From NCBI GenBank assembly GCA_903923395.1, contig CAIXXM010000065.1, forward strand, positions 1-45,468: 45,468 bases of DNA, in the 5' to 3' direction. The notes beneath the pieces are model-generated. The model did not search any database, had not been told where the DNA came from, and worked only from the letters and a program-made list of their open reading frames with translations. Source of the stretch: an uncultured Acidobacteriia bacterium. Its GTDB lineage: Bacteria; Acidobacteriota; Terriglobia; Bryobacterales; Bryobacteraceae. Below are positions 34,469-43,817 of this stretch, piece after piece (the first letter of the stretch is position 1; each line of letters opens with the position of its first letter). The translations under genes and the position numbers were made by a program.

Positions 34469-34492
34469 TTGACCCTATATGGTCAATTGACA
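34469..34492. promoter_or_regulatory. Candidate operator: TTGACC-N6-GGTCAA-TTGACA
   Basis: A palindrome TTGACC (34469-34474), spacer CTATAT, GGTCAA (34481-34486) is followed at once by a third half-site, TTGACA (34487-34492). It lies about 100 bases before the csbD start. The same arrangement recurs at 40542-40563. TTGACA could also be a -35 element, but no good -10 lies at the proper distance. Confidence 0.5.
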
Positions 34493-34593
34493 CCGTACAG
34501 CCGCTTCTAACAGCAGTTATCAGCCGGAAAAACCACGGCCCTCGAAATGCTCATTGTTCTGTGAACTTTCCGTTCGACAAGGAGCAGGCATTT

Positions 34594-34830
34594 ATGAATA
34601 TGGATCAACTTGAGGGCAGCTGGAAACAAATCAAAGGTGAGGCTAAACGCAAGTGGGGCCTTCTCACGGAAGACGATCTCACGGCCGCCGCAGGCAAGCA
34701 GGAAGTACTCGTCGGCAAACTGCAGGAACACTATGGTCTGGTCAAAGAAGAAGCACAGAAACAACTGGACGATTTTCTCAAAAACCTCAAGCATGCAACG
34801 GAAGCCAGGTCCGAACATCATATCGGCTGA
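34594..34830 (+). CDS. CsbD-family stress protein
   Basis: ATG at 34594 with AAGGAG about 10 bases upstream gives 78 residues, the usual size for the family. The signature is MDQLEGSWKQIKGEAKRKWGLLTEDDL, followed by AAAGKQEVLVGKLQEHYGLVKEEAQKQLDDFL. CsbD-type proteins are small, hydrophilic and helix-rich, and in Bacillus are under sigma-B control; their mechanism is unknown. Here it stands alone, followed by a long non-coding gap, with a candidate operator upstream. Confidence 0.93.
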   Translation: MNMDQLEGSWKQIKGEAKRKWGLLTEDDLTAAAGKQEVLVGKLQEHYGLVKEEAQKQLDDFLKNLKHATEARSEHHIG

Positions 34831-35343: not shown

Positions 35344-35493
35344 ATGTTATGGACACTCGCAGTCATTTTATTCGTACTTTGGGCACTAGGAATGGTAACG
35401 GCCTACACAGCTTCCGGCCTGATCCATATCCTTCTCGTACTCGCGCTCATCGCAGTTCTGATCCGCGTGATACAGGGAAGGAGTGCCATCTGA
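35344..35493 (+). CDS. lmo0937-family small membrane protein
   Basis: The 49-residue product is almost all hydrophobic, with two helices: LWTLAVILFVLWALGMVTAY and GLIHILLVLALIAVLIRVI, ending QGRSAI. This matches the lmo0937 family of about 50 residues, found next to stress genes in many soil bacteria; function unknown. It is too short for routine gene calling but the match is close to full length. Confidence 0.9.
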   Translation: MLWTLAVILFVLWALGMVTAYTASGLIHILLVLALIAVLIRVIQGRSAI

Positions 35494-35536: not shown

Positions 35537-35692
35537 ATGTTAATCCTGCTGATCGTATTTATTCTTCTTCTGAGCGGCGGCGGCGGCTATTATGGCCATA
35601 GCCGCTGGGGTTATGGAGGCAGCGCGGGCATCGGCCTCGGTACAATCCTGCTGATTCTGCTCTTGCTCTGGTTTATGGGTAGTTTGCATTAA
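35537..35692 (+). CDS. DUF3309-family mini membrane protein
   Basis: This 51-residue protein has a hydrophobic N-terminal helix (LILLIVFILLL), a glycine- and tyrosine-rich turn (SGGGGYYGHSRWGYGGSAG) and a second helix (IGLGTILLILLLLWFMG). This is the DUF3309 layout. A GGAG lies about 8-10 bases before the ATG. It starts 43 bases after the lmo0937-family stop and is probably in the same transcript. Its stop overlaps the convergent glycosyltransferase stop by 4 bases. Confidence 0.9.
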   Translation: MLILLIVFILLLSGGGGYYGHSRWGYGGSAGIGLGTILLILLLLWFMGSLH

Positions 35693-36705
35693 TGTCCTGC
35701 CAGTAAAGCTGCATAAACCTTTTCATAGCCCGCGACCATGGTTTCGATGGAGAACAGTTCCATCACGCGGCGGCGGCAGGCGGTCCGGTCAATTTCAGAC
35801 AACCGCCCGACTGCTGCCGCCGCTTGATCTGTATCATCCACCAGAAATCCCGTCCGGCCATCCGCTATCACTTCCCTGCAGGACCCCAGATCCATTGCAA
35901 TCACCGGAACGCCCGCTGCATTCGCTTCCGCCAGAACCAGGCCGAAGCGCTCGGGAATCGTATTTAGATGGAGCAGCGCGGCCGCCCGCGCAAAGAGACT
36001 GTTCTTCTGCTCCACAATCACGGGACCGGTATAAGAAATCCGTTCACCGTCCAGGTGCGGCTCGATCAACCTCTCGAAGTATTCACGATCCTGAATGATT
36101 CCCGCAATCAGAAGACGCCGTCCCGTCATGCCGGCAACCTCAATCGCGAGATGAGTGCCTTTATCAGGATGAATCCGGCCCAGAAAGAGCAACTCCCCGC
36201 CGCCTGTCGGCTGAAGGGGATACAGACCGGTATCGATCCCGTTATAAACAGTGGCAACATAGTTCAGGCCCGCTGCCCTGTCCGCATTGCTGACCGATAC
36301 AAAGTTACTGTTCCGGTATTTCTCATATACCGGCATGATTTGTGGCGATGAAAACCCGTGGATGGTTGTCAGCAGCGGCGTCTGCACCAGCCGGGAGTAA
36401 GTCAGCGGCATGAAGTCATAGTGGCTGTGGATAAGATCGTACTCCCCCGCATGCTCAAAAACTTCTGAAATGTGGCGGTATTCGGCCACTTTGGCATCCA
36501 CAGTTCTGTCTTCCTCATAACCCCGCGGTACAACCGCATGCAATTTGGCGGCTGTGATCGAGTCCCCTGTCGCGAACAGAGTCACATCCCAGCCTCTGGC
36601 GGCGAGCCCTTCAGCCACGTTTCCGGCCACCGTTTCCCACGCGCCATAGTCCCTCGGCGGGGTGCGCCATGCGACGGGAGAAAGAACGGCGATCCGCCGC
36701 TTCAA
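35689..36705 (-). CDS. Glycosyltransferase family 4 (GT-B fold)
   Basis: A TTG at 36705 overlaps the GH130 stop as TTGA and gives 338 residues. The N-terminal domain has PPRDYGAWETVAGNVAEGL and DLIHSHYDFMPL. The C-terminal nucleotide-sugar domain has LLFLGRIHPDKGTHLAIEVA (about 173-192) and the EX7E-type segment PERFGLVLAEANAAGVPVIA. This is a retaining GT4 enzyme, transferring a sugar from a nucleotide-sugar donor; donor and acceptor are not readable from sequence. It is the last gene of a tight three-gene operon with GH130 and a second GT4. Confidence 0.9.
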   Translation of the reverse strand: MKRRIAVLSPVAWRTPPRDYGAWETVAGNVAEGLAARGWDVTLFATGDSITAAKLHAVVPRGYEEDRTVDAKVAEYRHISEVFEHAGEYDLIHSHYDFMPLTYSRLVQTPLLTTIHGFSSPQIMPVYEKYRNSNFVSVSNADRAAGLNYVATVYNGIDTGLYPLQPTGGGELLFLGRIHPDKGTHLAIEVAGMTGRRLLIAGIIQDREYFERLIEPHLDGERISYTGPVIVEQKNSLFARAAALLHLNTIPERFGLVLAEANAAGVPVIAMDLGSCREVIADGRTGFLVDDTDQAAAAVGRLSEIDRTACRRRVMELFSIETMVAGYEKVYAALLAGH

Positions 36706-38153
36706 ACTTCTGTCTCCATCGCAGCCAGCACATCCGCGAGCGGAATCATGGCAAATGTGGCCGAGTGGTCAGCCATGGCATAGGGAATGATCAACATCCC
36801 GTTGTGAACCAGTGCCCCGCACGAGTAGACTACATTCGGAACATAGCCTTCACGCTCCACGGCGTTTGGCTCGAGCAGTGGTTCGCGCAAACGCCCGATG
36901 ACGATTGTGGGGTCCGCAAGATCCAGCAGGAAGGCACCAATACAGTAGCGCCGCATCGGGCCCACGCCATGGCTCAGAACCAGCCAGCCGGCCTCCGTTT
37001 CGATTGGCGAACCACAGTTGCCGATCTGCACCATCTCCCAGGGATACAGCGGCTTCAGAATGAGCGTGTGTTCGTTCCAAAAGTGAGGGTTCCCGGAAAA
37101 CATGATGTAGATGTTCTCGTTGTCCTGCCTGGAAAGCATGGCGAAGAGACCGTTGAGCTTCCTGGGAAAGAGCGCCATCCCCTTGTTGACCGCAGCAGGC
37201 CCGTTCAGGGTAGTAAAGCGAAAGACAAGAAAGTCCGCCGTCTCGACAAGCTCCGGGAAGATAGCCCTGCCATTGAACGCCGTAAAGGTGGCAAAGTAGA
37301 TGTAAGTGCCGTCCTCCTTCGCGAACCGGACGAACCGGGCATCTTCAATACCATTGCTCTGCTCAGGGGTCGCTGGAAACAAAACGCGTTCAGAAAGCGG
37401 CTGACCAGGATCAAACCGGACCTCATGGTTGGAACGGGCCAGCGTCCAGATCCCGTCCGCAATGTTCTTCGACAAGTTACAGTTCGCGGCACCCTCGCTA
37501 TCCAGCGCGAGGCGAAGCTCCCGCAGGGTAAACTTATTCGCCAACTTCTCCAGGACGCACTTCGCGGCTTCGGTTTTCAGCCCGCGGGCATACATCGTCC
37601 GGGAAAACAGCGCCTTCTCATAGACCGGATTGGGTATCTGCTTCGGCTCTTCCAGAAAACCACCCGGCGCGTCTACGTTGATGGAATAGTCCACATGAAC
37701 CGTTCCTGTCCGGAATGTAATCGAGGAGACATGACCTTCGCCTGTGGCGCGGAGACTGAGAATGAAACGCACGCCGCCGGGCGCAACGCCCTCCTGATCC
37801 GGATGTGGCACGATCGAAGGATTGAACAGCGCAGCCGATTCCAGTGAGTATTCCGCCAGGAAGTAAGATCCGATCAGCATCTGGCGGGCCGGCGAAATTC
37901 TCACATGCGAAGGCGTCAGCAACCGGAGTTCGTCGTACCTTGCGCGGAAGCGTTCCCGGATATTGCGGTGACGCAGCGAGAATTCCTTGCAGACCGACTC
38001 CAGTATCTTCGGAACCTCTTTCTCCGGCAGCAGCATGATCCTTGCGATGATGCGCCGCGCCCGGTCGGCATCTCCAGGATCGAAGGGCCGCAGCAGGACG
38101 CGGGTTTGATCCGGCGCAATTACAGCGCCGGTACGGATGGGGGAAAGGCGCAC
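36702..38153 (-). CDS. Glycoside hydrolase family 130 (mannoside phosphorylase-like)
   Basis: A GTG at 38153 directly follows the previous stop, giving 483 residues. Five-bladed beta-propeller features of GH130 are visible: ESAALFNPSIVPHPDQ, ARSNHEVRFDPGQP, GIEDARFVRF (the conserved E-D-x-R segment), IYIMFSGNPHFWNEH, GSPIETEAGWLVLSHGVGPMRRY and SCGALVHNGMLIIPYAMADHS. GH130 enzymes phosphorolyse or transfer beta-mannosides, and a few are hydrolases. An N-terminal extension of about 110 residues precedes the propeller. Flanking GT4 enzymes make turnover or synthesis of a mannose-containing glycan the simplest reading. Confidence 0.88.
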   Translation of the reverse strand: MRLSPIRTGAVIAPDQTRVLLRPFDPGDADRARRIIARIMLLPEKEVPKILESVCKEFSLRHRNIRERFRARYDELRLLTPSHVRISPARQMLIGSYFLAEYSLESAALFNPSIVPHPDQEGVAPGGVRFILSLRATGEGHVSSITFRTGTVHVDYSINVDAPGGFLEEPKQIPNPVYEKALFSRTMYARGLKTEAAKCVLEKLANKFTLRELRLALDSEGAANCNLSKNIADGIWTLARSNHEVRFDPGQPLSERVLFPATPEQSNGIEDARFVRFAKEDGTYIYFATFTAFNGRAIFPELVETADFLVFRFTTLNGPAAVNKGMALFPRKLNGLFAMLSRQDNENIYIMFSGNPHFWNEHTLILKPLYPWEMVQIGNCGSPIETEAGWLVLSHGVGPMRRYCIGAFLLDLADPTIVIGRLREPLLEPNAVEREGYVPNVVYSCGALVHNGMLIIPYAMADHSATFAMIPLADVLAAMETEV

Positions 38154-40442
38154 TTAGTCTCCCACCGCAACCGGCTGCAGGAAGCTTGTCAGGATATCCG
38201 CGGAAAGCCGCATTTCCGCCAGCGAAAGCAGAAAGGCGAGCGTGGATTCCGCACCTTGGTTCCAGTTCACACGGTCCACATGCAGGCCGTCACAACAGCC
38301 GCCCGTTTGCGGAGAGTACAACTCCTTGCCCAGATCATTCCAGCCAAGGAACCAATCGAAAGCACGCTGCGCCTGTTCATTCCACCAGAGATCTCCTGTG
38401 ATCCGGAAGGCCGCCAGACAAGCGGAGACCGTGGCATTGGCCTCCACCGGCTGCTGATCGAAGTCCGCACGGGCGCCGCCGCGTACGTGGAAGCCATTGC
38501 TGCCAATGGGGCGGAAATGTCCCTGTTCGGAGGTTTGGATTTCCACGAGCCACCGCAAGGATTCCAGACCCAGTGCGAGCACGTCGTCACGCCCCATGGC
38601 ACTGCCGCTTAGGATCAGCGCATGAGGAATCTTCGCATTGTCATACGAAAGGCTTTCCTCATACCAGCGCCAGTCCTGCTGGGCGGTGCGGTGATAGATA
38701 TCCGTGAGCCTCCAAACCAAGGTATCCCGGATCTGGTTTACCATGCTGTCGCCGCCCAAACGGCGCAAATATTCATGGATTCCGATGAGCGCAAAGGCCC
38801 ATGCCCGCGGCGACCGGCATTCCAGCAACTCCGGTAATCCACGGGAGAAGATCTGGCCCGCCAGCATCTGAAAACTGCGGTAAGGAGAGCGGCCCACCGC
38901 CGTGCCAAGTGCCCACAATGCGCGGCCCTGGCAATCTTCGGAACCGGCCTGATCAAGCCAGCGGCGGTCAAAACTCATGAAGTTGTGAAACCTGCGGGTT
39001 CCCTGGTCAAACGCGTGATGAAGAAATGCTGCACAGGTCGTAGCGATCGACCGGACTTCATCTTGATCTCCGCCCAACTCACTCAGTTGCACCGCCAGTA
39101 CAAGAGCGCGTGCATTGTCATCCGCGCAGTAACCTTCCGCGAAGTTCGGCACCGTGAAGACTGCATGCTGGAAAACACCGGTCGCGTCCGTCATCCGGCG
39201 TAAATGCGTGAGTTTCATCTCCGGCAGTTCGCGGGGCTTGCGGTCCACGGTCTTGGCGGCGAGGAACTTATGGGCCAGTGGCGCGCCCTCCAGCCGCGCC
39301 AGTTCGAAGGAATGCATATAACGCTTCGCGGCGCTGCTCCAGATCATGTCCCGGCCAATCCTGTAAGCATTGCGCCGCATCGCATGCCGCCGGTTGTCAT
39401 CACCCAGCAAATCGATGATCGCCTCGGCCATCGCGGCCGGATTCGCAAAGGGAACCAGGGTTCCGCGCTCTTCATCGAGCAGTTCGGCGGCATGCCAATA
39501 GGGGGTGGAGACCACTGCCTTTCCCGCTCCAAACGCATAGGCCAGCGTACCGGAAGTAATTTGCGCCTCCTGTAAGTACGGAGTGATATACAGGTCTGCC
39601 GCGCCAATAAACTCTTTCAGATTTTCCAGATCGACAAACTGGTTGTAGAAGATGACATTCGCTCCAACCTTGTTCTTGCGCGCCAGAATCTCAAGACTGA
39701 GCCGGTATGCCTCGCCGTGTTCGCGAAGTTCGTTGGGGTGGGTTGCCCCAAGAATGACATACACAACGTCGGGAAACTTCGCGACAATCGCCGGCAGAGC
39801 GTTGAGCACATGTTCGATTCCCTTATTGGGCGAAAGCAGACCAAAAGTAAGCAAAACGATCTTGCCTTCCACTCCGAACTGATCTTTATAGTAGGCAGGG
39901 TCAACAAAGCCGACATCGGGAATGCCGTGGGCAATCAGATCGATGCGGTTCGCGGGTGCATGATAAATCTCCCGCAGCATTTGCATACCGCGTTGCGACA
40001 TCACCACGAATCTGGTGGAAAGTGAGATTAGTTCCTGCATCACACGGCGCTGGGCCGGATCGGGATCGCGAAGAACTGTATGGAAAGTCGTCACCACAGG
40101 CATTCTCAGTTCGCGCAGCAGAGCCAGAATGTGACTGCCGGCAACCCCGCCAAAGATGCCGAACTCATGCTGCAGGCAGACGATGTCCACGTCGGAGATG
40201 TTGAGAAAATCCGCCGCCCGCAGATAAGAGGCGATATCCTGCTCCTCAATTTCAAAGCGGACGACCTCGGGATATTCGTAGCCGGTTTTGATGTCATTGA
40301 CAGAAACGCAGAGGCACTCACTTTGGGGATACTCCGTGGCCACCGCGGCCAACACATCAGAAGTGAACGTGGCGATACCGCACTTTCTCGGCAGGTGATC
40401 GCCGACGAACGCTATTTTTTGGATTCCACGGGTCTCAGTCAT
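38154..40442 (-). CDS. Bifunctional protein: GT4 glycosyltransferase fused to an (alpha/alpha)6 glycosidase-like domain
   Basis: ATG at 40442 follows AAGGAAG by 5 bases and gives 762 residues; a GTG at 40460 would remove that ribosome-binding site from the leader. Residues about 8-390 are a GT4 domain (GDHLPRKCGIATFTSDVL, LQHEFGIFGGVAGSH, LLTFGLLSPNKGIEHVLNAL, YLQEAQITSGTLAYAFGAGKAVVST). Residues about 410-755 form a helical domain with GYCADDNARALVLAVQL, RWYEESLSYDNAKIPHALI and GCCDGLHVDRVNWNQGAEST, resembling six-hairpin glycosidases. Making and trimming one glycan in a single polypeptide is inferred. It is the first gene of the operon. Confidence 0.88.
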   Translation of the reverse strand: MTETRGIQKIAFVGDHLPRKCGIATFTSDVLAAVATEYPQSECLCVSVNDIKTGYEYPEVVRFEIEEQDIASYLRAADFLNISDVDIVCLQHEFGIFGGVAGSHILALLRELRMPVVTTFHTVLRDPDPAQRRVMQELISLSTRFVVMSQRGMQMLREIYHAPANRIDLIAHGIPDVGFVDPAYYKDQFGVEGKIVLLTFGLLSPNKGIEHVLNALPAIVAKFPDVVYVILGATHPNELREHGEAYRLSLEILARKNKVGANVIFYNQFVDLENLKEFIGAADLYITPYLQEAQITSGTLAYAFGAGKAVVSTPYWHAAELLDEERGTLVPFANPAAMAEAIIDLLGDDNRRHAMRRNAYRIGRDMIWSSAAKRYMHSFELARLEGAPLAHKFLAAKTVDRKPRELPEMKLTHLRRMTDATGVFQHAVFTVPNFAEGYCADDNARALVLAVQLSELGGDQDEVRSIATTCAAFLHHAFDQGTRRFHNFMSFDRRWLDQAGSEDCQGRALWALGTAVGRSPYRSFQMLAGQIFSRGLPELLECRSPRAWAFALIGIHEYLRRLGGDSMVNQIRDTLVWRLTDIYHRTAQQDWRWYEESLSYDNAKIPHALILSGSAMGRDDVLALGLESLRWLVEIQTSEQGHFRPIGSNGFHVRGGARADFDQQPVEANATVSACLAAFRITGDLWWNEQAQRAFDWFLGWNDLGKELYSPQTGGCCDGLHVDRVNWNQGAESTLAFLLSLAEMRLSADILTSFLQPVAVGD

Positions 40443-40524
40443 AGGGTCTTCCTTGATCACGCGGTAACAGGGTGCAATCGGCGCGCCGAAGGTTTAGTCC
40501 ATAGCTCTCAGTGGCAGAGCGGCT

Positions 40525-40544
40525 CCGGCAGTGGCCGGCAGTGA
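40525..40544. repeat. 10-bp tandem repeat beside the operator-like palindrome
   Basis: CCGGCAGTGG (40525-40534) is followed directly by CCGGCAGTGA (40535-40544), one mismatch at the last base. It abuts the palindrome at 40542. Confidence 0.7.
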
Positions 40545-40563
40545 CCGCCGGCGGTCATTGACC
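40542..40563. promoter_or_regulatory. Candidate operator: perfect 16-bp palindrome plus third half-site
   Basis: TGACCGCC (40542-40549) and GGCGGTCA (40550-40557) form a perfect palindrome that reads TGACC-N6-GGTCA. After one base a third TGACC follows (40559-40563). It lies in the 233-base gap between divergent genes, about 100 bases from the GT4-GH start and about 113 bases from the SYLF-gene start. The half-site order and spacing match 34469-34492. Confidence 0.55.
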
Positions 40564-40675
40564 TGCGGAAATGTCATTCCCACGGTCCCCCAAAGAGGGG
40601 AAGGCCCAGCCGATTCAACGAGACGCAGTCGGGCAGCCACTTGCACTCTGGAAAGCGTAAAGAAAAGGAACACTA

Positions 40676-41350
40676 ATGAAACGAATCAAATTGACTCTTG
40701 CCATTCTTGGCGCTGCTGCTCTGTGCAGTGCTGAAACTTCCGCGGAGCGCCTGGGGCAGGCAACCAGCGTACTCAGCGATATCATGGACGCGCCCGATGG
40801 CGGCGTGCCGCATGAACTGATGGAGAAGGCCCAATGCGTTGTGATTATCCCCGGCCTGAAGAAAGGTGCCTTTATCTTCGGTGGCAAGTATGGCCGGGGT
40901 TACATTACCTGCCGCGCAGCCTCCGGCAGAGGCTGGTCGGCTCCCGCCGGTGTCACTGTGGAAGGCGGCAGCTTCGGTTTCCAGATCGGCGGTGAAGAAG
41001 TAGACGCCCTGATGCTGGTGATGAGCAAAAGCGGTGCGACCAAACTGCTGCAAAGTAAATTCACGCTGGGCGGGGATGCCTCTGTCGCAGCCGGTCCTGT
41101 AGGGCGCACCACAGCGGCTGCCACAGACCTGCAGATGCATGCCGAAATTCTGACTTACTCACGAACCCGTGGTGTCTTTGCCGGCCTGTCCCTCGGCGGT
41201 GCGACCATGCGCCCCGATAAACAATCCAACCAGGAGCTCTACCACAGCAGCCGCAGCAACCAACAAATCGTGTTCGGCAAGACAGTTCCCCCGCCGGCGG
41301 CAGCGCAGCTTCGCGAGAATCTCTCGAAGTATTCGATGCACAAGGAATAG
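40676..41350 (+). CDS. SYLF-domain (YSC84-like) lipid-binding secreted protein
   Basis: ATG at 40676 follows AAAAGGAA by 6 bases and gives 224 residues with a signal peptide (KRIKLTLAILGAAALCSA). The SYLF/Las17-binding-type domain is evident: VLSDIMDAPDGGVPHELMEKAQCVVIIPGLKKGAFIFGGKYGRG, RGWSAPAGVTVEGGSFGFQIGGEEVD, and AEILTYSRTRGVFAGLSLGGA. The domain binds phosphoinositides in eukaryotes; bacterial relatives are periplasmic or outer-membrane proteins, often in stress clusters. It is divergent from the GT/GH130 operon and shares the operator-like region with it. Confidence 0.9.
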   Translation: MKRIKLTLAILGAAALCSAETSAERLGQATSVLSDIMDAPDGGVPHELMEKAQCVVIIPGLKKGAFIFGGKYGRGYITCRAASGRGWSAPAGVTVEGGSFGFQIGGEEVDALMLVMSKSGATKLLQSKFTLGGDASVAAGPVGRTTAAATDLQMHAEILTYSRTRGVFAGLSLGGATMRPDKQSNQELYHSSRSNQQIVFGKTVPPPAAAQLRENLSKYSMHKE

Positions 41351-43124: not shown

Positions 43125-43817
43125 GTGAAGCAGCGAATTCTTATGATCGAAGACGAGGAAGGTCTCGTCCTTACGATTTCCGACCGCCTCATTTCCGAGG
43201 GCTACCAGGTGGATTCTTCGGGCGACGGTGACGAAGGCCTCCAGAAGGCCATGACCGGGGCCTATGATTTGATCCTCCTCGACATCATGTTGCCCGGCCG
43301 CAGTGGCTTCGATATCTGCCGCCGCCTGCGGCAGGCTGGCATCCGGACCTCCATCCTGATGTTGACCGCCCGCAGCCAGACCATCGACAAAGTCGAAGGT
43401 CTGCAGATTGGCGCGGACGACTACATGACCAAGCCGTTCGACATGATGGAACTGCTCGCCCGAATCGAGGCACTGCTCCGCCGCAGCGCTCCGGCACCGG
43501 TGAAGCAGGCCGAAAGCCAGATCTTCCAGTTCGGTGGCGTCACCGTGGATTTCCGCAGCACGGAAGTGAAGAAAGATGGCAAGGCTGTGCTGCTCAGTGC
43601 CCGCGAGTTCCAACTGCTGCGGTATCTCATTGAGCACCGCGGCGCATTGATCACCCGCGAAGAACTGCTCTCGAAGGTTTGGGGCTACGCGCCGCATCTC
43701 TTCACCCGCACCGTGGACGTCCACATGGCCTGGCTGCGGCAAAAACTGGAAGACAACCCGCGCGCGCCGGAGTTTCTGCTCACCATCCGCGGCTTGGGAT
43801 ACAAACTGGCAGCGTGA
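43125..43817 (+). CDS. OmpR-family response regulator, no kinase nearby
   Basis: A GTG at 43125 gives 230 residues. The receiver domain has the acidic pocket (E9, D10), phosphoacceptor D53 in LLLDIMLPGRSG and K103 in DDYMTKPFD. The winged-helix DNA-binding domain (about 130-228) contains LSAREFQLLRYLIEHRGALITREELLSKVWGY and TVDVHMAWLRQKLEDNP. All phosphorylation residues are intact. No histidine kinase is beside it; the coupled gene downstream is a TIR-like protein. Its stop overlaps that gene's start as GTGA. Confidence 0.94.
   Translation: MKQRILMIEDEEGLVLTISDRLISEGYQVDSSGDGDEGLQKAMTGAYDLILLDIMLPGRSGFDICRRLRQAGIRTSILMLTARSQTIDKVEGLQIGADDYMTKPFDMMELLARIEALLRRSAPAPVKQAESQIFQFGGVTVDFRSTEVKKDGKAVLLSAREFQLLRYLIEHRGALITREELLSKVWGYAPHLFTRTVDVHMAWLRQKLEDNPRAPEFLLTIRGLGYKLAA

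Follow-up and report, generated by a model that had tools for sequence, protein, structure and literature searches.

Shared half-sites at three stress-type transcription units

The window analyzed here, the whole 45,468-nt stretch of DNA from a Bryobacteraceae genome, raises the question of whether a csbD gene, a SYLF gene, and a divergent glycosyltransferase operon answer to one regulator. The initial annotation had proposed such a link from an arrangement of short half-sites found at two noncoding places. The genes and sites concerned are the following.

34470..34503, + strand: operator A (UAS), TGACC-N6-GGTCA-N2-TGACA, fourth half-site degenerate (AGCCG)
34594..34830, + strand: csbD (CsbD-like, 78 aa; Pfam PF05532, E 1.4e-15)
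35689..36705, - strand: glycosyltransferase, gene 3 of the operon (Pfam Glycos_transf_1)
36702..38153, - strand: GH130 protein (mannooligosaccharide-phosphorylase-like), gene 2 of the operon (Pfam PF04041, E 1.5e-25)
38154..40442, - strand: glycosyltransferase (GT4-type), gene 1 of the divergent operon (Pfam Glycos_transf_1; likely ATG at 40442)
40542..40576, + strand: operator B (UAS), TGACC-N6-GGTCA-N1-TGACC-N8-TGTCA, a spacing variant
40676..41350, + strand: SYLF-domain (Ysc84) protein (Pfam PF04366, E 6.6e-35)

Both sites are present as first described. The window contains exactly two copies of the palindrome TGACC-N6-GGTCA (34470-34485 and 40542-40557); dinucleotide shuffles of the window gave a mean of 0.03 occurrences, and two occurrences in 0 of 100 shuffles. 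At site A, a 2-base gap precedes the third half-site, TGAC at 34488-34491, with A as the next base, and at site B, a 1-base gap precedes TGACC at 40559-40563. The end of palindrome A lies 108 bases from the csbD ATG (34594) and that of palindrome B 118 bases from the SYLF ATG (40676), in agreement with the first estimate of about 100 to 120 bases upstream of a start codon. We scored the sites with a profile model (R1) and a position weight matrix (PWM), both built from an alignment (A1) of 72 of the 116 family operators described below. Operator A, itself a member of the profile's training set, scored 19.4 bits with the profile and 25.3 with the PWM, the best value in the window. Operator B reached 14.2 profile bits, covering its first palindrome only. 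Site B departs from the common spacing, being the sole N1-gap match among 26 matches in 19 genomes of the same genus.

Between csbD and the glycosyltransferase operon lie two very small membrane-protein genes; one (35537-35692) encodes a DUF3309 protein, and the other (35349-35492), without a Pfam match, resembles the lmo0937 family. An OmpR-type response regulator gene is found near the cluster (43125-43817).

The three-half-site motif exceeds chance in the genome, genus, and family

We scanned the genome to which the window belongs (6.15 Mb, 169 contigs), taking the backwards pattern as the control for motif counts. The two-half-site palindrome occurred at chance frequency (8 places versus 6 for the control) and was rejected as a functional unit, whereas the form with a third half-site (TGAC after 0 to 3 bases) occurred at 3 places versus 0, so that the third half-site carries the signal. 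The third operator of this genome (C27:29640) lies between two divergent genes, which by eye encode a PRC-barrel protein on one flank and, on the other, a small protein rich in histidine and, after it, a DUF2934-like protein. Across the 19 genomes of the genus, we found 26 matches versus 1 for the control, with a gap of N2 in 22 and N3 in 3. In 237 genomes of the family, TGACC-N6-GGTCA-N2-TGAC gave 241 matches versus 8, both counts taken over both strands, so that complete four-half-site palindromes are counted twice. The genome search for the three-half-site pattern that the initial annotation had suggested therefore came out above chance in the genome, the genus, and the family.

The six best matches of the R1 profile over the genome (both strands) were operators A, B, and C27:29640; as operators A and C27 belong to the training set, this result is a check of uniqueness and not an independent find. 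No clear fourth operator emerged from this profile scan, in which 150 of 1623 first-look candidates were scored. A search of the genome allowing two mismatches was uninformative and was set aside (36 matches versus 47 for the control, both strands). Two of its matches, C27:25176 and C102:38345, were picked by context; the former is an operator-like site (PWM 20.8) before a gene pair that by eye encodes a 17M-like and a PRC-barrel protein.

For the family, the stretches fetched were 80 of those listed, leaving out G052, G098, two G166 contigs, one G167 site, and G173 to G179; one G052 site and the G098 site were taken into the repeat promoter set described below.

The complete operator has four half-sites

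Alignment of 116 operators revealed a conserved fourth half-site that was absent from the search pattern (G 0.59, G 0.91, T 0.73, C 0.79, A 0.64). Since it is kept at the right distance, the operator unit consists of two tandem palindromes, and the full operator is TGACC-N6-GGTCA-N2-TGACC-N6-GGTCA. The palindrome centers are 18 bp apart, and inside each palindrome the half-sites are spaced at 11 bp (one helical turn), which would be expected for a dimer with helix-turn-helix (HTH) domains. The initial annotation had suggested a dimer with an extra third site; it was right about the third half-site, which carries the signal, but incomplete, as the four half-sites form a site for two tandem dimers.

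Sigma-54-type promoter elements lie beside the operators, in phase with them

The sigma-54 consensus is given as TGGCAC-N5-7-TTGCT in a survey of sigma-54 (PMC12316311). We counted TGG-N9-TGC in the 244 arms of 122 operators, 35 to 135 bp from the operator center, and found 95 occurrences, against 3 to 12 for each of twelve other spacings of TGG and TGC in the same arms and 10 in a control region 300 to 400 bp off. A repeat set that included all 26 genus sites gave 92 occurrences versus 4 to 12 at other spacings; the two genus sites missing from the first set (G002:C223 and G009:C239) were included here, and neither has TGG-N9-TGC. In this repeat set, the element stood on at least one side of 72 of the 122 operators (on both sides of 18) and on neither side of 50. 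An element scoring at least 15 was present on at least one side of 105/122 operators, but this score was also reached by about 23% of shuffled arms and by 56/240 control arms, which makes the spacing test the more telling of the two; we set the scoring weights ourselves from the sigma-54 consensus, and the spacing test is independent of them.

The distances from the operator center to the -12 element were phased with a period of 11.2 to 11.6 bp, forming clusters near 72, 85, 95, 107, 118, and 131 bp. After removal of similar arms, the phasing persisted in the remaining 78 (period 11.4 bp) and was matched by 0 of 2000 jittered nulls; leaving out named gene families (61 arms), it was matched by 8 of 2000. 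Residual shared ancestry may inflate this signal.

Within the window, neither site A nor site B has TGG-N9-TGC, whereas C27:29640 has it on each side. Three weaker candidates were found.

34536..34551, + strand: candidate sigma-54 -24/-12 element of csbD, CGG-N9-TGC, score 17
40473..40488, - strand: candidate sigma-54 element of the GT/GH130 operon, CGGCGCGCCGATTGCA, score 18.5
40630..40645, + strand: candidate sigma-54 element of the SYLF gene, CGGGCAGCCACTTGCA, score 16

All three start with CGG and are thus imperfect, and the SYLF candidate is weak. The GC of the -12 element lies about 63 bp from the center of operator A for csbD, and 84 bp and 85 bp from that of operator B for the GT/GH130 operon and the SYLF gene, respectively; the last two distances fall inside the 84- to 87-bp cluster of the family, and both elements are located 30 bp before an ATG. 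Among 908 window stretches (100 bp, both strands), scores of 17, 18.5, and 16 were reached in 52, 7, and 139, respectively, so that the single window elements are suggestive only.

A PAS-AAA+-Fis protein co-occurs with the operator

Several sites adjoin a gene whose product has PAS, Sigma54_activat, and HTH_8 domains. Its Pfam domains were read for five orthologs (L099, L103, L104, L108, and L116, with L108 cut short), and no Response_reg receiver domain was found in these five, counting the shortened one. In an alignment of six orthologs including that of the genome under study (L168), the GAFTGA motif was invariant, and the Walker motifs and the HTH were kept. This genome contains one ortholog (C102:36036-38096), which is 67% identical along almost its entire length; the second-best match was 47% identical over the C-terminal half only, and 15 further matches lay in the AAA+ region. 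It also encodes one RpoN (Sigma54_DBD match, E 1.8e-55).

We evaluated the distribution of the activator in the 237 family genomes, scoring the four best candidates per genome, and found an ortholog in 70 (E 1e-130). Site and activator were both present in 57 genomes, the site only in 18, the activator only in 13, and neither in 149. The 57 genomes, out of 75 bearing the site, hold 213 of the 241 site matches. When the activator label was shuffled within genera, a co-occurrence of 57 was reached in 0 of 20,000 trials (mean 36.0, maximum 47). No activator match at E 1e-130 was found in the 18 other site-bearing genomes, six of which have at least two site matches, and no strict site in the 13 other activator genomes.

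An operator (score of at least 10) was located within 700 bp upstream of 25/40 activator gene loci, some of them near-duplicates and some with operators from the training set of the matrix, versus 0/40 in a coding control; it was not found at the other 15. These 40 loci are those, out of 47, in which the N-terminal part is present. The 47 records come mostly from acidobacterial metagenome-assembled genomes, many labeled Bryobacterales, plus the cultured strain KBS 96. The KBS 96 activator gene has an operator-like site upstream (PWM 20.5; model 11.5 bits), and the upstream region of the activator gene in the genome under study has a degenerate site only (PWM 3.0).

A structure model of the KBS 96 protein suggests three PAS-like domains, judged by eye, its AAA+ part being poorly modeled (mean pLDDT 63.9). 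The activator matched DosP by sequence and by Foldseek, and the PAS domains of FixL by Foldseek; these matches reflect the general fold and therefore do not indicate the sensed signal. Compared with named NCBIfam equivalogs (FhlA, NifA, NorR, AtoC, NtrC, PspF, PrpR, and others), no family of bacterial enhancer-binding proteins (bEBPs) reached its cutoff among the matches listed (25 of 34), the best scoring 417 bits versus a required 830, and only a general PAS domain model did so.

Some activator copies carry one in-frame stop (G003:C85, G014:C99, G166:C98, and L345). The activator is also found in records labeled Planctomycetota and Nevskia soli (L337, L341), perhaps mislabeled or mixed assemblies. 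A conserved, exported-looking protein with a GPVEIPGVH motif adjoins the activator or lies behind operator-linked promoters in several genomes (L168:5488-6213, on C102 of the genome under study, as well as L099, L101, L108, L260, L264, and L297); it has no NCBIfam match (copy of the genome under study) and no Pfam match (L099 copy).

Operators lie upstream of csbD, SYLF, and other stress-type genes

We then analyzed the first genes behind operator-linked promoters. Among 119 proteins, Pfam identified SYLF/Ysc84 in 13, PAS proteins in 8, CsbD and HisKA in 4 each, sigma-54 activators, ice-binding, and PRC-barrel proteins in 3 each, and malic enzyme and MCRA (oleate hydratase-like) in 2 each, a rough tally since mechanical gene calling missed some small genes. 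SYLF was the commonest among the families listed (25 of 80). Further operator-linked genes, named by eye, encode YtxH-like, ferritin-like, universal-stress-like, and phosphoketolase-like proteins.

We selected 28 genomes with both the activator and at least one strict site; in these, an operator (score of at least 12) lay upstream of 13/48 csbD genes, four of these operators being from the training set of the matrix, versus 1/29 in 28 activator-free genomes; none was found at the other 35 csbD genes of the activator genomes. The test used 77 of 79 csbD matches, two at contig starts being left out, and the upstream scores were bimodal. Of 42 SYLF matches in the genus, 30 loci were examined, and an operator was found about 120 to 310 bp upstream of the match at 5 and at none of the remaining 25. 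The best support for the proposed csbD/SYLF link is one genome (G018, locus L062) in which a single operator lies between divergent csbD and SYLF genes. The conservation of sites at orthologous genes that the initial annotation had asked about is therefore borne out by csbD (13/48 versus 1/29), by SYLF (13/119), and by this shared operator.

The genome under study contains a second csbD-SYLF pair (G000:C87:5518-6573; L027, L377), whose SYLF protein is 73% identical to that of the window. No operator was found at this SYLF locus (L027), and its csbD is absent from the best 40 of the 77 csbD upstream scores. PAS histidine kinases also occur behind operator-linked sigma-54-like promoters; that of L106 has a receiver domain by Pfam, and those of L105, L110, L248, and L296 were read by eye. 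Their presence behind operators suggests a signaling cascade.

Proposed mechanism and alternatives

Sites A and B are members of a family-wide set of operators at which one sensor protein, working with sigma-54, very probably turns on stress-type genes as a group. From the sequence evidence, we consider it highly likely that they are enhancers of the PAS activator, which would work through sigma-54 to drive expression of csbD, the GT/GH130 operon, and the SYLF gene. The operator, its promoters and their phasing, and the co-occurrence and adjacency of the activator were established by computation; that the activator binds these sites and activates there, and that the signal is stress, we infer. 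The activator would be a one-component protein in which PAS sensor domains are combined with an AAA+ domain of the GAFTGA type and an HTH of the Fis type, and two of its dimers would occupy the tandem palindrome. Upon sensing of a signal by the PAS domains, it would assemble on the enhancer, and ATP hydrolysis together with a DNA loop would open RNA polymerase-sigma-54 at a GG-N10-GC promoter placed mostly 60 to 120 bp away, on a preferred helix face. Enhancer looping and opening of the sigma-54 polymerase are established for the bEBP class. Site A would thereby serve csbD, and site B would serve two divergent promoters, those of the SYLF gene and of the GT-GH130-GT operon.

Another regulator might bind the operators as sigma-54 enhancers, with the PAS activator merely one of its target genes. 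The hybrid PAS histidine kinase with a receiver domain behind an operator in L106, and similar ones in L105 and L110 by eye, would fit such a scheme, as would the 18 site-bearing genomes without an activator match and the 15 further AAA+-region matches in the genome under study, which imply that other sigma-54 activators exist there. Yet co-occurrence within genera is strong for the PAS activator, the family put to that test, and an operator precedes 25/40 of its loci, and we regard this alternative as unlikely. It is very improbable that the palindrome is bound by a TetR-, OmpR-, or GntR-like protein, as a classical repressor or response regulator acting at sigma-70-type promoters; site A reads TTGACA at its third half-site, which is similar to a -35 hexamer, and an OmpR-type response regulator is encoded at 43125-43817, but the promoters beside the operators are of sigma-54 type, with one exact spacing and in phase with the operator.

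Lower still do we place the chance proximity of two GC-rich palindromes. The 16-bp pattern alone does occur at chance frequency genome-wide (8 versus 6), but with the third half-site included, the counts are 3 versus 0 in the genome, 26 versus 1 in the genus, and 241 versus 8 in the family, and sites recur at orthologous genes (csbD, 13/48 versus 1/29); a chance origin was rejected, as the genus and family counts contradict it. These nonchance family sites and their recurrence at orthologs likewise support the initial proposal of one regulator linking csbD, the GT operon, and SYLF. For control by the PAS activator through sigma-54, the counterevidence lowers the claim a little for the window genes and hardly at all for the family motif.

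Relation to known systems

Like the bEBPs NtrC, NifA, FleQ/FlrA, ZraR, NorR, and PspF, the activator described here combines an AAA+ domain (GAFTGA) with a Fis-type HTH and is associated with palindromic dimer sites upstream of GG-N10-GC; unlike them, it has N-terminal PAS domains, no receiver domain that we could find, an operator sequence of its own, and stress-type targets. A sigma-54 enhancer with a one-component activator is a known kind of system, and what is particular here is the unusual targets. The NtrC operator is TGCACC-N5-GGTGCA, bound by tandem dimers. Like ours, it is an inverted repeat that spans roughly one helical turn, but it differs in sequence and spacer, and a receiver domain was not found in the activator here. 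General stress control of csbD depends on sigma-B in Bacillus and Listeria and on RpoS in E. coli (yjbJ). The target csbD and the stress-type partners are common to these systems and ours, whereas control here apparently involves sigma-54 and an ATP-driven activator.

The nearest motif that we met is that of DVU2894/FlrA, yGTCA-N6-TGACr, described for a sigma-54 activator of a flagellar cascade with proposed autoregulation in the portion of the source available to us (PMC4641369). Both motifs are inverted repeats with related half-site letters and an N6 spacer, but the half-sites are reversed (GTCA..TGAC versus TGACC..GGTCA here), and a four-half-site tandem like ours is not noted for DVU2894/FlrA in that portion (PMC4641369). 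In the main text of the sigma-54 survey, neither "Acidobacteri" nor "csbD" has a match (PMC12316311), and we found no account of this regulon in the open-access literature searched.

Acidobacteria are abundant in soil, and to our knowledge little is known about how they control stress-type genes. A broader reading, which we offer tentatively and at somewhat less than even chances, is that in Bryobacteraceae a sigma-54 enhancer switch, and not sigma-B, RpoS, or EcfG, may run a general-stress-like program, with an autoregulating PAS activator and a four-half-site enhancer phased at about 11.4 bp; the program might then comprise CsbD, SYLF, PRC-barrel, YtxH, 17M-like, ice-binding, malic enzyme, phosphoketolase, and oleate hydratase-like genes, several of them named by eye. 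The helical phasing of enhancers and sigma-54 promoters has usually been studied at single promoters, and the operator set provides natural data on it. The findings define a testable regulon, complete with operator, promoter, sigma factor, and a candidate for its regulator, in the family to which strain KBS 96 belongs, and they give a regulatory context to the poorly understood csbD, SYLF, and GH130/GT genes.
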